Shown: positions 9,270-13,317 of the stretch, piece after piece
How positions within the stretch are numbered: the stretch's first letter is position 1
How the letters are laid out: every line of letters begins with the position of its first letter
From: an uncultured Pelagibacteraceae bacterium
GTDB taxonomy: Bacteria > Pseudomonadota > Alphaproteobacteria > Pelagibacterales > Pelagibacteraceae
Assembly (NCBI GenBank): GCA_902622805.1
Contig: CACNRG010000010.1
Span: 1 to 33,290 of the forward strand
Length of the DNA: 33,290 bases
Direction of reading: 5' to 3'
Made by a program: the position numbers and the translations under genes
Notes under the pieces: model-generated
The model's database searches: none
Told to the model about the DNA's origin: nothing
The model's input: the letters and a program-made list of their open reading frames with translations, nothing else

Positions 9270-9962
9270 CTAATTCTTAGAAAGAAATTTAATCAAACTT
9301 TTCAAAGCTTTTTTTTTAGCAGATGACCTGGAAACCATCATACAGGCTTCGGATTTTAATATTTCTCCATCTTTCAATATTCTTAAGTTATTAGCTTTTA
9401 ATGTTTCTCCAGTTGAAGTTATGTCTGTAATTAACTCACTAGACTTTGTGAAAGGATAAGCTTCTGTTGCACCCAAGCTGCTTACTAGCTTAAATTGAGT
9501 TACTCCTTTAGAGAACAAAAATTCTCTTGTTAAATTTGGATATTTTGTTGCCACTCTTAATCTTTTCTTTTTTTTATCTTTAAAATCAAATCCTATTTCT
9601 TCTAAATCAGCAATCGTTTGTACATCAATCCATTCATCCGGGATGGCAACAACTAATTTTGCTTTACCGAAATTATATTTTTTACTGACACTAATTTTAT
9701 TTTGAATATTAATTTCACTTTCTTTTAATAAATCAATTCCAGAAAATCCCAAATCTAAAGAACCCTCTCCTAATCTTTGAATAATTTCTCGTGCATGTAA
9801 ATAAATTATCTTAATATTCTTTTTACCTTTAATTGATGCAAGTAAATCCCTTTCTCCTCTTTCAGAAAAAAGTCTTAATTTCTTCTTTTTAAAAATATTT
9901 AAAACATCTTTTCTTAGTCTGCCTTTGCTGGGAATTCCAACATTTATTATATCGTTAATCAT
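9270..9962 (-). CDS. hisG: ATP phosphoribosyltransferase, short-form catalytic subunit
   Basis: First step of histidine synthesis: ATP plus PRPP to phosphoribosyl-ATP. At 230 aa it lacks the C-terminal ACT-like regulatory domain, so it is the short HisG(S) type that needs HisZ. Motifs include the N-terminal NVGIPSKGRL, LGEGSLDLGFSGIDLL, RVATKYPNLTREF (periplasmic-binding-protein fold hinge) and DITSTGETLKANNL, the PRPP-binding loop. Its ATG overlaps the hisZ stop as ATGA, so catalytic and regulatory subunits should be made together. It ends the histidine unit; rmuC follows 51 bases later on the same strand. Confidence 0.93.
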   Translation of the reverse strand: MINDIINVGIPSKGRLRKDVLNIFKKKKLRLFSERGERDLLASIKGKKNIKIIYLHAREIIQRLGEGSLDLGFSGIDLLKESEINIQNKISVSKKYNFGKAKLVVAIPDEWIDVQTIADLEEIGFDFKDKKKKRLRVATKYPNLTREFLFSKGVTQFKLVSSLGATEAYPFTKSSELITDITSTGETLKANNLRILKDGEILKSEACMMVSRSSAKKKALKSLIKFLSKN

Positions 9963-11005
9963 ATATTTATAGCAGCCCCAACTGCTGGAACTTCTTTTTT
10001 TGATCCAAGATCGGAGATTAAGTGATCATACCTTCCACCATTAATAACATTTTTATTTTTTAAATTTGATTTGATATCAATTCTAAAAACCATTCCTGTA
10101 TAATACTCAAGTTGTCTTCCAAATGAGGCGGAAAAAATAACATTTAATTTTGAAACTTTATTTTGAGATAACGGGAAATATCTTTGGTCTACAGCAAGAT
10201 TAATCTTATATTTCTTAAAAAATTTGTTTAATTCACTAGCTGCTTTATTTATTGGACATTTTATTCTTAAAAAATCTTTAATTATTTTTGAAACATTTTT
10301 ACCTTTATTTGTTCTTCTTGGGTCTTTAATTTTATGATCAAATCTTTTTAAAATTTCTTTTATTGATCTTCCTGCAACAACTTTAGATTGATCATCTTTC
10401 AACATCTTTAAGTAACGTCTTTTATCAACTTCAACAATAGTTGGATCAACATCAGAGTTGGTTTCCAGTCTTTTTAAAAGATCATTAAAATAATTTTCTC
10501 TCCAAAAGTGTCTTGATAATCTTAATTTCCATCTTTTTGGAATATCTAATTTTGAAATAAGAAGATTAAAAATTTCAATATTGCCAATTGTTAAAGTACC
10601 GGAAGTATATTTTAGATTTTGTAAAGATTTAATAGAGGTATTAATTATTTCTTTGTCATCATTTTTTTCATTTTTAGAACCAATAATCTCAAATCCAATT
10701 TGATTTCTAATAATAGAGTCTTTTTTATTTTGTGATTTTCTATAAGCCTGACCACTATAAAATATTTTTTCTTTGCCTTTTAGATTGTCCTCTAAATACC
10801 TTAGACACGATACAATCGTTAAATCTGGTCTTAAACATAATTCGCTGCCATTTTGATCAATAAATGAAAATATGAATTTCCTAAAGTTTTCACCTGATCT
10901 TTGAACAATGTGATTGGCTTCTATTACTGAAGGTAAATTGATAAACTTAAATCCTTTTGACTTTACTGATTTAAGGATATTTTCAGATAAGTTTTTTGAT
11001 TTCAT
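9959..11005 (-). CDS. hisZ: ATP phosphoribosyltransferase regulatory subunit (HisRS paralogue)
   Basis: 348-aa class II aminoacyl-tRNA-synthetase-like protein without the anticodon-binding domain. It shows ELCLRPDLTIVSCLRYL (class II motif 2 region, R-P-D-x-T), FYSGQAYRKSQ, a degenerate FEIIG strand, and C-terminal RQLEYYTGMVFRID plus NGGRYDHLISDLG, which resemble the histidine-binding motifs of HisRS. In families of this type HisZ binds the feedback inhibitor histidine and activates short HisG. It lies between hisS (its catalytic relative, 23-base overlap) and hisG (ATGA overlap), a layout that fits gene duplication of a HisRS ancestor followed by specialisation. Confidence 0.9.
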   Translation of the reverse strand: MKSKNLSENILKSVKSKGFKFINLPSVIEANHIVQRSGENFRKFIFSFIDQNGSELCLRPDLTIVSCLRYLEDNLKGKEKIFYSGQAYRKSQNKKDSIIRNQIGFEIIGSKNEKNDDKEIINTSIKSLQNLKYTSGTLTIGNIEIFNLLISKLDIPKRWKLRLSRHFWRENYFNDLLKRLETNSDVDPTIVEVDKRRYLKMLKDDQSKVVAGRSIKEILKRFDHKIKDPRRTNKGKNVSKIIKDFLRIKCPINKAASELNKFFKKYKINLAVDQRYFPLSQNKVSKLNVIFSASFGRQLEYYTGMVFRIDIKSNLKNKNVINGGRYDHLISDLGSKKEVPAVGAAINI

Positions 11006-12377
11006 TAACTAAATTTTCTTTTGAAATAGTTTGATTATTTTCACCCTTAACGCCTTTAAGGTTTTTAACTGTAACTGTGTTTTTATCAAATTCATTTTCA
11101 CCACAAATTATAGCAAGATCAAGTTTACGTTTATTTGCGTAAGTAAGTTGTTTTCCTAAATTTTTTTTTGTATCTAAAAATATCTCGGCATTGATATTGT
11201 TAGCTTTTAATTGCTCTAAAATTTCATAGTAATTTTTCAAATATTTTTCATCCATAACACAAACTAGAACTGGCTTTTGTTCATTAATTTTTATTTGTTC
11301 TAGTTGCATTAATGCAAACAATAATCGATCAACTCCAAATGATATTCCTGTACCTGGTATATCTACACCCTTGAATCTTGATATAAGTTTTGCATAAGCA
11401 CCTCCTGAGCAAATACTACCTATATCAATTACTTTTTTTTTATTATTTTTTACTTCGAAATTTATATTTGTCTCTACGATAAACCCATCATAATAAGCAA
11501 GGCCTCTTACGATTGTAAAATTTGTTTTAACTTGGTTTTTATATTTTCCAAATCCAAGTATTTGGAATACGTCTTCTATTTCTTTTATCCCCTCTTGAGA
11601 TAGTGGATTTTTTAAATTATCTTTTAATTTTTTAAGATCTTTTATTTTTAGAAAATCTAAAATTCTTTCCACTTGAACGTTATTTAAATCTGCGCCTTTT
11701 GTGATTGCACCCGAGCTATCTTTTCTCTCTTTTTTAAGTAAAGCCTCAACCCCTGATAAACCAAATCCAGGTTTATCTAATTTATCAATTGCTCTAATTA
11801 CTTTTGTTTGTTTTTCAGAAGAAATATTAAGCTCATCAATCAAACCTTGAACAATTTTTCTATTACTAACATTAATCGTAAACTGATCTTTTTTAAGACC
11901 ACATTCTAATAAAGTAGCTGAAATTAAGTTGCAAAGTTCAGCGTTTGATTGTGCGGGATTGGTATTGCCAATTATATCAAAGTCAGCTTGAAGAAATTCT
12001 CTATACCTTCCATTGCCAGGTTTTTCATTTCTAAAAACATTTTGAATAGCATATCTTTTGTAAATTGTTGGAAGTTCCTGATTATTCTGAGCTACAAACC
12101 TAGCGAGTGGACTAGATAAATCGTATCTTAAAGTAATATTTTTATCTCCATCCTGAAATGAAAAAATATCAGACATAGGATTAGCTTCATCTTCTGCTAG
12201 AAAAGATCCTATATTTTCACTTATCTCAAAAGATGGGGTTTCTAAAGGTTCGGCCCCAAATTTTATAAAATTTTTTTCAATCACTTGTAAAAGCTGTTTT
12301 TTTAAAACTAGCTTTTTTCCCCAACGATCTTCAAATCCAGATGGTAAGGATGGATTGAGTTTTTTTTCTTTGTTCAT
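10983..12377 (-). CDS. hisS: Histidyl-tRNA synthetase
   Basis: Charges tRNA-His with histidine. Visible are LPSGFEDRWG near the N-terminus, ITLRYDLSSPLARFVA (motif 2 start), FRNEKPGNGRYREFLQADFD (motif 2), GLAYYDGFIVET (histidine loop), and GTGISFGVDRL (motif 3), followed by the C-terminal anticodon-binding domain. The form matches the alphaproteobacterial HisRS type associated with tRNA-His that lacks G-1. The start chosen is ATG at 12377 (MNKEKKLNPS). A longer reading from a TTG at 12425 would translate the tRNA-His gene itself and is rejected. The start codon is only four bases past the CCA end of tRNA-His (12382), so there is no room for an ordinary ribosome-binding site outside the tRNA. 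Confidence 0.94.
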   Translation of the reverse strand: MNKEKKLNPSLPSGFEDRWGKKLVLKKQLLQVIEKNFIKFGAEPLETPSFEISENIGSFLAEDEANPMSDIFSFQDGDKNITLRYDLSSPLARFVAQNNQELPTIYKRYAIQNVFRNEKPGNGRYREFLQADFDIIGNTNPAQSNAELCNLISATLLECGLKKDQFTINVSNRKIVQGLIDELNISSEKQTKVIRAIDKLDKPGFGLSGVEALLKKERKDSSGAITKGADLNNVQVERILDFLKIKDLKKLKDNLKNPLSQEGIKEIEDVFQILGFGKYKNQVKTNFTIVRGLAYYDGFIVETNINFEVKNNKKKVIDIGSICSGGAYAKLISRFKGVDIPGTGISFGVDRLLFALMQLEQIKINEQKPVLVCVMDEKYLKNYYEILEQLKANNINAEIFLDTKKNLGKQLTYANKRKLDLAIICGENEFDKNTVTVKNLKGVKGENNQTISKENLVNEIKKLI

Positions 12378-12381
12378 TTTT

Positions 12382-12455
12382 TGGTACCTTGGGTAGGTTA
12401 CGCTCCTACGACTTCGGATCCACAAACCGACGTGATGCTATTTCACCACCAAGGC
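12382..12455 (-). tRNA. tRNA-His (GTG)
   Basis: 74 bases including an encoded CCA. Acceptor stem GCCTTGG pairs with CCAAGGT (one G-T at 1-72), D stem GTGA/TCAC, anticodon loop TTGTGGA (anticodon GTG) on a TCGGT/TCCGA stem with a T-T mismatch at 31-39, and T stem GTAGG/CCTAC. Discriminator base is A73 and the base before G1 is T, so no G-1 is encoded; this matches the altered His identity known in many alphaproteobacteria. The D loop AATAGCA lacks the G18-G19 pair and the T loop AGCGTAA lacks the T-T-C core. The stems are sound, so I take it as functional. It is first in the unit tRNA-His, hisS, hisZ, hisG. Confidence 0.88.
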
Positions 12456-12494
12456 ATATCCCTTTATGTTTATCTTATTTTGAATGGATTTAAA

Positions 12495-12505
12495 ATTATA
12501 TTATA
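12495..12505 (-). promoter_or_regulatory. Candidate -10 element for tRNA-His / hisS
   Basis: Two overlapping perfect TATAAT hexamers lie on the minus strand at 12505-12500 and 12500-12495, about 40 to 45 bases before the tRNA 5' end. No good -35 hexamer is seen at normal spacing, so this may be a weak promoter or simply A+T-rich sequence after the upstream hairpin. Confidence 0.3.
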
Positions 12506-12515
12506 AAAGTTAATT

Positions 12516-12551
12516 GCTAGCTTTAGCCAGCGTGGAAATGATTATGCACAC
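12516..12551 (-). promoter_or_regulatory. Candidate histidine attenuator: two alternative hairpins
   Basis: Read on the minus strand, GTGTG (12551-12547) can pair with CACGC (12534-12530), with His codons of the small upstream ORF in the loop and stem. GCTGGC (12531-12526) can pair with GCTAGC (12521-12516) around a TAAA loop that contains the ORF's stop codon; an A+T-rich stretch with a T4 run follows. The two stems share bases 12530-12531, so they cannot form fully together. This is the geometry expected for ribosome-controlled attenuation ahead of tRNA-His-hisS-hisZ-hisG, but the second stem is short and its T tract is not immediate, so terminator activity is inferred only. Confidence 0.35.
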
Positions 12552-12624
12552 CTCTATTAGTTCCTCGAAGAGTAGATCTTTGAGTACATATAGTTATTTT
12601 TATTATGCTTTTATTTTTAATCAT
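12523..12624 (-). CDS. Possible histidine leader peptide, 33 aa
   Basis: Short ORF, ATG at 12624-12622, TAA at 12525-12523. It encodes a basic peptide (many Lys/Arg and Thr) that ends GVHNHFHAG: three His codons (12546-12544, 12540-12538, 12534-12532) within the last seven residues. It lies after the cspA terminator and upstream of tRNA-His and hisS on the same strand, and its final codons overlap the two candidate alternative hairpins. No strong Shine-Dalgarno sequence is seen (AAAAGAACC precedes the start). The 3' half is clearly less A+T-rich than flanking non-coding DNA, which suggests constraint. It could be a hisL-type leader, a small protein, or chance; only comparison between relatives can tell. 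Confidence 0.35.
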   Translation of the reverse strand: MIKNKSIIKITICTQRSTLRGTNRGVHNHFHAG

Positions 12625-12662
12625 GGCGGTTCTTTTAGACAAAAAAAATATTTAATCAACCC

Positions 12663-12710
12663 TTAAAAATTAAAAAGGATGTTCATCTAATTTAATAGAT
12701 GAAACACCCT
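12663..12710 (-). terminator. Rho-independent terminator after cspA
   Basis: On the minus strand AGGGTG-T-TTCATCTA pairs with TAGATGAA-CATCCT around a TTAAAT loop: 14 pairs with one bulged base and one G-T. TTTTTAATTTTTAA follows directly. It starts 19 bases after the cspA stop and separates cspA from the histidine unit. The 8-bp inner arm is a perfect inverted repeat (12682-12689 with 12696-12703). Confidence 0.8.
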
Positions 12711-12728
12711 CTAAAATTTTTAAATTAT

Positions 12729-12941
12729 TTAGTCTATTTTTTTTAGATTTACTGCAGAAGGACCTTTAGGGCCATCTTCTAAAGAAAATTCAAGCTTATC
12801 ACCTTCATTTAAATATCTCATTCCAGCTGCTTTTACAGCTGAAGCATGCACAAACGCATCTTTTTCTTTGTCATCTCTTTCGATAAAACCGTAGCCTTTT
12901 TTACCGTTAAACCATTTTACTTTGCCTTGTAATGTACTCAT
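12729..12941 (-). CDS. cspA: Cold-shock-domain protein
   Basis: 70-aa single cold-shock domain that binds single-stranded nucleic acid and melts RNA secondary structure. The start [16 protein letters not shown] includes RNP1 (KGYGFIE), DAFVHAS is RNP2, and [16 protein letters not shown] closes the barrel. Length and motifs are standard. The gene is preceded by tRNA-Phe on the same strand with 79 bases between, and is followed by a strong terminator. An AAGGA lies about 13 bases before the ATG. Confidence 0.95.
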
Positions 12942-13020
12942 CTTATTTTTTTGTCCTTTTTATTAATTTTTAATGGTCTAAAGTTAATTTCTTTTTTAAA
13001 TATTTCAAGTTGAAAAGTGG

Positions 13021-13095
13021 TGGTGGCTGAGGAAGGATTCGCACCTCCGACACAAGCCTTTTCAGGGCTCTGCTCTACTCCTGAGCTACTCAGCC
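13021..13095 (-). tRNA. tRNA-Phe (GAA)
   Basis: 75 bases including encoded CCA. Acceptor GGCTGAG/CTCAGCC is perfect, D stem GCTC/GAGC, anticodon stem GAGCC/GGCTT with loop CTGAAAA (anticodon GAA), T stem GGAGG/CCTTC, A73. The T loop reads TGCGAAT, with G where U55 is almost universal. The 5' end is six bases after the infA stop, so it is probably cut from an infA transcript. Confidence 0.95.
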
Positions 13096-13101
13096 TTAAG
13101 A

Positions 13102-13317
13102 TTATCCTCTAAAGATTATTCTACCTTTAGTAAGATCGTAAGGTGTCATCTCTACTGTCACGTTATCGCCTTGTAGAACTCTAATTCTATTTTTTCTGAG
13201 TTTACCTGCAGTGTGAGCTGTAACAGTGTGACCATTTTCTAATTGAACTCTAAACATTGCATTAGGCAACAAGTCAGTTACTTTACCTTTAAATTCAAGT
13301 AGATCTTGTTTTGACAA
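13102..13317 (-). CDS. infA: Translation initiation factor IF-1
   Basis: 71-aa OB-fold protein that occupies the A site during initiation. It reads as a typical IF-1 throughout, with [38 protein letters not shown] and [13 protein letters not shown]. The start codon is TTG at 13317: the frame is closed upstream by a TAG with no ATG before it, and AGGAGA lies about eight bases ahead, so initiation at TTG is well supported. hisD ends two bases upstream. murA-DUF2948-hisD-infA is a familiar alphaproteobacterial gene order. Confidence 0.96.

Follow-up and report, generated by a model that had tools for sequence, protein, structure and literature searches.

Sequence comparison points to a histidine leader peptide and a probable attenuator before tRNA-His, hisS, hisZ and hisG in SAR11 bacteria

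A short open reading frame (ORF) rich in His codons precedes the genes for tRNA-His and histidyl-tRNA synthetase in a 33,290-nucleotide stretch of DNA (the window) from an uncultured Pelagibacteraceae bacterium, raising the question of whether it encodes a leader peptide through which the supply of charged tRNA-His controls the genes that follow. The source assembly comprises 942 kb in 33 contigs, and relatives with HisS identities of up to 97% are recorded as Pelagibacteraceae, i.e. SAR11. A preliminary description of the locus had proposed a layout of the amino-acid attenuation type. The present analysis indicates that a ribosome-mediated histidine attenuator probably does precede tRNA-His-hisS-hisZ-hisG, in a form that departs in part from that layout. 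The features of the locus are the following.

12654–12659, minus strand: TTGATT, −35 element of the putative leader promoter (from TTG spacing in relatives)
12632–12637, minus strand: TAAAAG, predicted −10 position of the leader promoter, 7 nt before the ATG (from geometry)
12523–12624, minus strand: leader peptide ORF of 33 codons with an ATG start and His codons 27, 29 and 31 (from the ORF list and translation)
12608–12614, minus strand: ATAAAAG, possible 5' strand of a closing helix, P1 (pairs with 12509–12503)
12516–12531, minus strand: hairpin P2, GCTGGC-TAAA-GCTAGC, terminator-like, with the stop codon at its loop (from folding, a terminator scan and relatives)
12503–12509, minus strand: CTTTTAT tail after P2, possible 3' strand of P1 (pairs with 12608–12614)
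12469–12497, minus strand: AATTTT-N17-GATAAA, conserved promoter-like block ending 13 nt before tRNA-His (from relatives; putative function)
12385–12455, minus strand: tRNA-His, anticodon GTG (Rfam RF00005, 48.3 bits)
10983–12368, minus strand: hisS, histidyl-tRNA synthetase (TIGR00442, 343 bits, cutoff 287; searched as 12392–10983, which includes eight codons ahead of the ATG)
9959–11005, minus strand: hisZ (NF008953, PRK12295.1-6, 395 bits, cutoff 384)
9270–9962, minus strand: hisG (TIGR00070, 180 bits, cutoff 76)

The order on the minus strand is cspE, the cspE terminator (12712–12668, folding at −18.4 kcal/mol), the leader ORF with P2, tRNA-His, hisS, hisZ and hisG. The Rfam and profile matches bear out the earlier claim that the downstream genes all concern histidine, and in each of the 80 named loci the hisZ match begins no earlier than the end of hisS. 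Just upstream and in the same direction (14606–12729) lie hisD (14606–13320), a 71-residue ORF, tRNA-Phe and the cspE-like gene. A second stretch with 76% identity to the cspE part of the query is found at G000:C1:129281–129502 (L002).

Of 297 genomes of the order, 271 gave a HisS match at an E value of 1e-60. The comparison used 181 regions upstream of hisS, taken from 100 of these 271 genomes (hand-picked for spread), the window and the 80 named loci; at least seven of the named loci probably belong to the same genomes as sampled ones (e.g. L143/G199, L145/G209 and L151/G141), and the 181 regions, as cut, comprise 162 distinct sequences. His columns, pN/pS, P1, P2, consensus folds and the promoter-like block were assessed after identical sequences had been collapsed. 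A class-wide HisS search at an E value of 1e-25 gave a match in 47 of 153 genomes, two of them SAR11; 40 of the 46 other places, from 39 of the matching genomes, served as non-SAR11 controls. A search with a DNA pattern across the class was uninformative, matching 23 of 58 genomes and missing the window's own genome. A similar pattern search within that genome found a single place, which is not this leader.

The leader peptide of the window is MIKNKSIIKITICTQRSTLRGTNRGVHNHFHAG, ending in GVHNHFHAG, and its three His codons (27, 29 and 31) do fall among the last seven, as the preliminary description had stated. An ATG-initiated ORF of 8–60 codons with at least three His in eight codons is present in 109 of the 181 SAR11 regions (110 in a second count of short ORFs); among the 160 distinct leader-bearing regions the count is 107. 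The same test gives 0 of 181 on the reverse strands, 1.0 in dinucleotide shuffles (range 0–3 over 20 rounds) and 2.6 in mononucleotide shuffles. Among the other alphaproteobacterial regions it gives 1 of 40 (0 of 40 for ORFs of 8–50 codons), the sole non-SAR11 case being a 59-residue ORF in G394. A looser test for at least two His codons detects a leader in 179 of the 181 SAR11 regions, yet it is unspecific (26.6 of 181 in shuffled sequences, 17 on reverse strands and 10 of 40 outside SAR11); the two regions that it misses are G107, with one His, and L174, which is truncated. When any stop-to-stop frame within 540–701 nt with three His in eight was accepted outside SAR11, 10 of 40 regions matched, none resembling the SAR11 leaders by eye. 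It is the comparison with relatives, rather than any single sequence, that excludes a chance origin of the leader.

The peptides fall into types that differ among clades. Type A, that of the clade containing the window, ends in GVHNHFHAG; type B in STHRNCFHS, with two or three His; type C reads HRHHFHAG...LAI, type D HSHRVHARLLLS, and the sister family F2 ends in HHHYHI. The core His codons drift between CAT and CAC and rarely change their meaning. In type A the CAT/CAC/other counts for the three His columns are 11/10/0, 14/4/3 and 17/4/0. The first His column of type B gives 19/34/1, and its last is CAT in 54 of 54 sequences, which its place in P2 could explain. The last three columns of type C give 29/6/2, 36/0/2 and 36/2/0; its first two are poorly kept (His in only 16 of 38 and 19 of 38). 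A search for peptide-level selection by pN/pS gave no signal beyond the His codons, with values outside them of 0.88 (A), 0.58 (B) and 1.17 (C) against 0.47–1.67 in other frames, which overlap. Weak constraint on the rest of the peptide is expected if the codons matter and not the product. Retention of the ORF and its core His codons across the sampled SAR11 regions, with synonymous CAT/CAC drift, is among the outcomes that the preliminary description had named as supporting its proposal.

The second hairpin that had been drawn around the stop codon is confirmed as P2 (GCTGGC-TAAA-GCTAGC). It is the only terminator-like site within 12300–13200, where 0.6 are expected from shuffles. P2 alone folds at −8.9 kcal/mol (z = −2.63); longer pieces, with z of −1.2 to −1.75, are not unusually stable. 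P2 is present in all 128 distinct sequences of the window's family, against a rate of 1.8% for such a hairpin in shuffled sequences, and its arms vary by clade (GCTGGC/GCTAGC, GCAAGC/GCTTGC, ATAGCC/GGCTAT and GCTAAGC/GCTTAGC). In 126 of the 128 the last His codon touches or overlaps P2 (gap of −2 to 0 nt); of the two exceptions one lies at +5 and one was not measured. Comparison thus supports the ORF, its His codons, P2 and the geometry that joins them as conserved elements. The clustered His codons kept across the sampled order, their synonymous drift and the hairpin abutting the last of them together strongly support a histidine leader peptide that would be translated.

Whether P2 acts as an intrinsic terminator is less uniform among the types. 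With a T-tail defined as at least five T in eight, one follows P2 in 50 of 50 sequences of type B, 18 of 29 of type C, 8 of 20 of type A, 9 of 20 others, 0 of 9 of type D and 0 of 7 of F2, so that hairpin and T-tail occur together in 85 of 135 sequences. The cspE terminator had been intended as a control for a simple hairpin rule; this rule, which needs three G-C pairs in an unbroken stem, detected it in only 7 of 135 sequences and the control was not used. In F2 the hairpin stands directly after the stop codon and is followed by a C-run; an ACCCC(C)T run within about 15 nt past the hairpin was seen in seven sequences (e.g. L095, L096 and L097). The weak or absent T-tails of type D, of the sister family and of 12 of the 20 type A sequences, together with this ACCCC run, would suit a hairpin that acts after transcription, on the processing or stability of a leader-tRNA-hisS RNA, or that accompanies Rho-dependent termination, with the ORF still sensing histidine. 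Given the full T-tail throughout type B, this alternative is considered rather unlikely.

A second alternative concerns the stem GTGTG/CACGC (12551–12530), which the preliminary description had placed around the His codons. In a classical two-state attenuator a stalled ribosome would let this stem form as an antiterminator that excludes the terminator hairpin. The stem can be drawn and does share two bases with P2, and 92 of 105 cells are paired in 21 type A sequences. However, the minimum-energy fold prefers GAGGTG/CATTTC, the fourth pair is broken in 8 of the 21 sequences, and the compensatory change looked for within the clade is two-sided at no pair. Nothing equivalent appears in the consensus folds of the other types, and with an assumed footprint a ribosome stalling at His 29 or 31 would itself cover the segment. 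No conserved antiterminator was found in these folds, and the classical mechanism is improbable; of the attenuation layout first proposed, the leader peptide and P2 stand, whereas the two-hairpin arrangement is unsupported. A consensus-fold pairing of AUG with CAU was discounted because both triplets are fixed for other reasons. Type A has an additional covarying hairpin (P3) upstream of the His codons, one pair being C-G in 13 of 21 sequences and U-A in 6 of 21, which is a possible pause site.

A third alternative takes the hairpin for an inverted repeat in the DNA to which a regulator binds ahead of a tRNA-His promoter, the ORF being incidental. It draws on the 18 bp that separate the hairpin from the promoter-like block in the window but is very improbable: a G-T pair, which suits an RNA helix but not a palindromic DNA site, is commonly retained in the stem (GCTGGC/GCTAGC, 39 of 39 type C sequences), the arms differ among clades and synonymous change keeps the core His codons.

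Since the last His codon abuts P2, a stalled ribosome could itself block the hairpin of the proposed ribosome-mediated attenuator. In fold simulations of the window with an assumed ribosome footprint, a ribosome on His 29 or 31 lowers P2 pairing from 0.99–1.0 to 0–0.04, so that read-through should be favoured when charged tRNA-His is short, and P2 when it is plentiful. The logic of the switch is not simple, because P2 is likewise blocked by a ribosome that has reached the stop codon and a stall at His 27 leaves P2 intact.

A second helix, P1, probably joins the start-codon end of the RNA to the tail of the hairpin, a reading with moderate support. Over 148 distinct sequences, pairing between the 22 nt at the 5' end and the 40 nt that follow P2 averages −5.74 kcal/mol, compared with −4.47 kcal/mol when partners are swapped (0 of 200 swaps as low), −3.8 when the 5' part is shuffled, and −2.1 and −3.2 kcal/mol for the segments after and before the 5' part. 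Dereplication, in a test that left out 10 of the 148 (G168, G284 and G222, with a misplaced hairpin, and seven sister-family sequences), gave permutations as good in 0 of 5000 for 41 sequences, 45 of 5000 for 27 and 27 of 5000 for 17; under looser dereplication the values are 33 of 5000 for 45 sequences and 137 of 5000 for 29. The pairing excess persists but weakens after dereplication. In type B, where covariation was assessed on 48 of 51 sequences, sliding the partner by 1–3 columns reduces pairing from 99% to at most 49%, and one pair is A-U in 28 of 48 and U-A in 19 of 48, an exchange that was probably inherited from few events. Neither the pairs with two-sided change (one) nor the pair types (four) in type B exceed those in shuffles. 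In the window P1 is a mere seven-pair match, and it is poor in several type A relatives.

The position of the leader promoter bears on where the RNA begins. In 173 of 179 relatives an in-frame ATG is preceded by a TTG at a distance of 34–36 nt, against a background of 2.4% per trial, a count favoured by choosing the best-fitting ATG where several are in frame; the six leaders without it are G046, G158, G054, G032, G009 and G097. With the −10 position 6–7 nt before the ATG, as read from the leader listing, this spacing places the expected +1 on the ATG itself. The promoter geometry gives moderate support to a leaderless leader mRNA. The −10 hexamer of the window, TAAAAG, is a poor match to TATAAT, and a consensus promoter scan of 12300–13200 found no site, with 2.9 expected. 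No clear Shine-Dalgarno sequence was seen by eye before the leader ATGs (uncounted), and other short SAR11 genes may be leaderless too.

A further block, AATTT[T/A]-N17 followed by a TATAAA-like hexamer, lies between the hairpin and tRNA-His, and its TA[AG]NATAA core is present in 100 of 107 unique regions compared with about six in shuffles, suggesting that tRNA-His may have its own promoter. The sequences upstream of 25 tRNA genes in the genome, among them tRNA-His, showed no motif to the eye, and the assignment is therefore kept putative. The view that the controlled unit includes the tRNA whose charging is sensed agrees with the position of the gene, although the block makes independent transcription possible as well. 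If the block is a promoter, the attenuator would add to a basal supply of tRNA-His rather than control all of it.

The tRNA-His itself is unusual. ARAGORN misses it in the window (12455–12385) and Rfam detects it. As we read it, the usual GG of the D-loop and TTC of the T-loop are missing from this tRNA in the window's clade (D-loop AATAGCA, T-loop AGCGTAA), which makes it reminiscent of mitochondrial tRNAs. The same 79-nt tRNA-His stretch is found in 9 of the 181 regions, duplicates included, and the gene is highly variable across SAR11. In G230, G103 and G159 (L053, L058 and L061) no Rfam tRNA is detected up to an E value of 0.5, although they contain the TGTGG anticodon pattern. In F2, neither ARAGORN nor the anticodon pattern detected tRNA-His between leader and hisS in any of seven sequences, nor did Rfam in the one searched. 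Seven of eight SAR11 genomes have been described as carrying a tRNA-His of the A73, no-G-1 type (PMC3937112), the consulted parts of that paper making no mention of the D-loop or T-loop.

The following course of events is inferred from these elements, and it is a prediction that the leader is translated, that the response runs in this direction, that transcription ends at P2 and that P1 plays the part given to it. RNA polymerase would start at or very near the leader ATG, and a ribosome would load on the 5' end. When charged tRNA-His is scarce, the ribosome would stall once a late His codon has entered its A site, covering the 5' arm of P2; with P2 blocked, transcription would run on into tRNA-His-hisS-hisZ-hisG. 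When charged tRNA-His is plentiful, the ribosome would finish and leave, P2 would form and transcription would end before the tRNA. For termination the ribosome must leave or lag, as one at the stop codon would also block P2. Pairing of the tail with the RNA 5' end in P1 probably helps P2 to form, and might draw the tail out and shut the start codon to later ribosomes. Tentatively, the whole can be read as a one-shot attenuator without an antiterminator, starting at the AUG, in which the stalled ribosome is the block and the hairpin tail pairs with the 5' end, shutting the start codon and aiding release. Such a switch would precede the tRNA that it senses and would join tRNA, synthetase and the first pathway enzymes in one feedback unit in much of SAR11.

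SAR11 bacteria have been ranked first in abundance among marine planktonic heterotrophs, and few transcriptional regulators are said to occur in bacteria whose genomes are reduced (PMC13198564). An order-wide amino-acid attenuator could be a main control of the SAR11 histidine supply, and would serve as a model in which to examine leaderless leader peptides and the regulation of a tRNA by the switch that reads it. No description of this leader was found among the open-licence papers searched, and one may exist elsewhere; the terms hisS and leader peptide are absent from a 2009 survey of SAR11 RNAs (PMC2704228), as is hisS from PMC8632094.

The system works like ribosome-mediated attenuation and is called a variant here because the evidence on terminator and antiterminator, two defining features, is mixed. 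An ORF, probably translated, with clustered codons for the amino acid of the pathway and downstream genes for the same amino acid are both found. An Rfam scan of 12200–13200 gave only tRNAs above threshold, with no match to the His leader, another leader or a T-box up to an E value of 5. The leader (hisL) of the enteric his operon, the Rfam His_leader, is likewise a short ORF that precedes his genes and has its His codons in a cluster, on which the ribosome would here too be expected to stall. It has a run of seven His codons, whereas the SAR11 leader has about two to six, precedes tRNA-His and hisS as well as hisZG, is probably leaderless, and has neither a conserved antiterminator that could be found nor an Rfam leader match. 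In pyrBI-type attenuation the leader ORF also runs into or through the hairpin and the ribosome itself decides, but UTP is sensed there through pausing of RNA polymerase. The leader peptides of Bacillus hisS*/hisZ resemble the present one in placing His codons upstream of a gene of the hisS family, and differ in that no tRNA-His between leader and hisS is mentioned in the parts consulted of PMC2965389, which report no sequence similarity between the leaders of Firmicutes and Proteobacteria. The trpL leader of Sinorhizobium meliloti (rnTrpL/peTrpL) differs in its amino acid, Trp, in its two mutually exclusive structures and in its unit, trpLE(G), for which the consulted parts of PMC7298713 mention no tRNA; it is nevertheless an alphaproteobacterial leader whose RNA begins at the ATG of the leader ORF (PMC7298713), as is predicted for the SAR11 leader.
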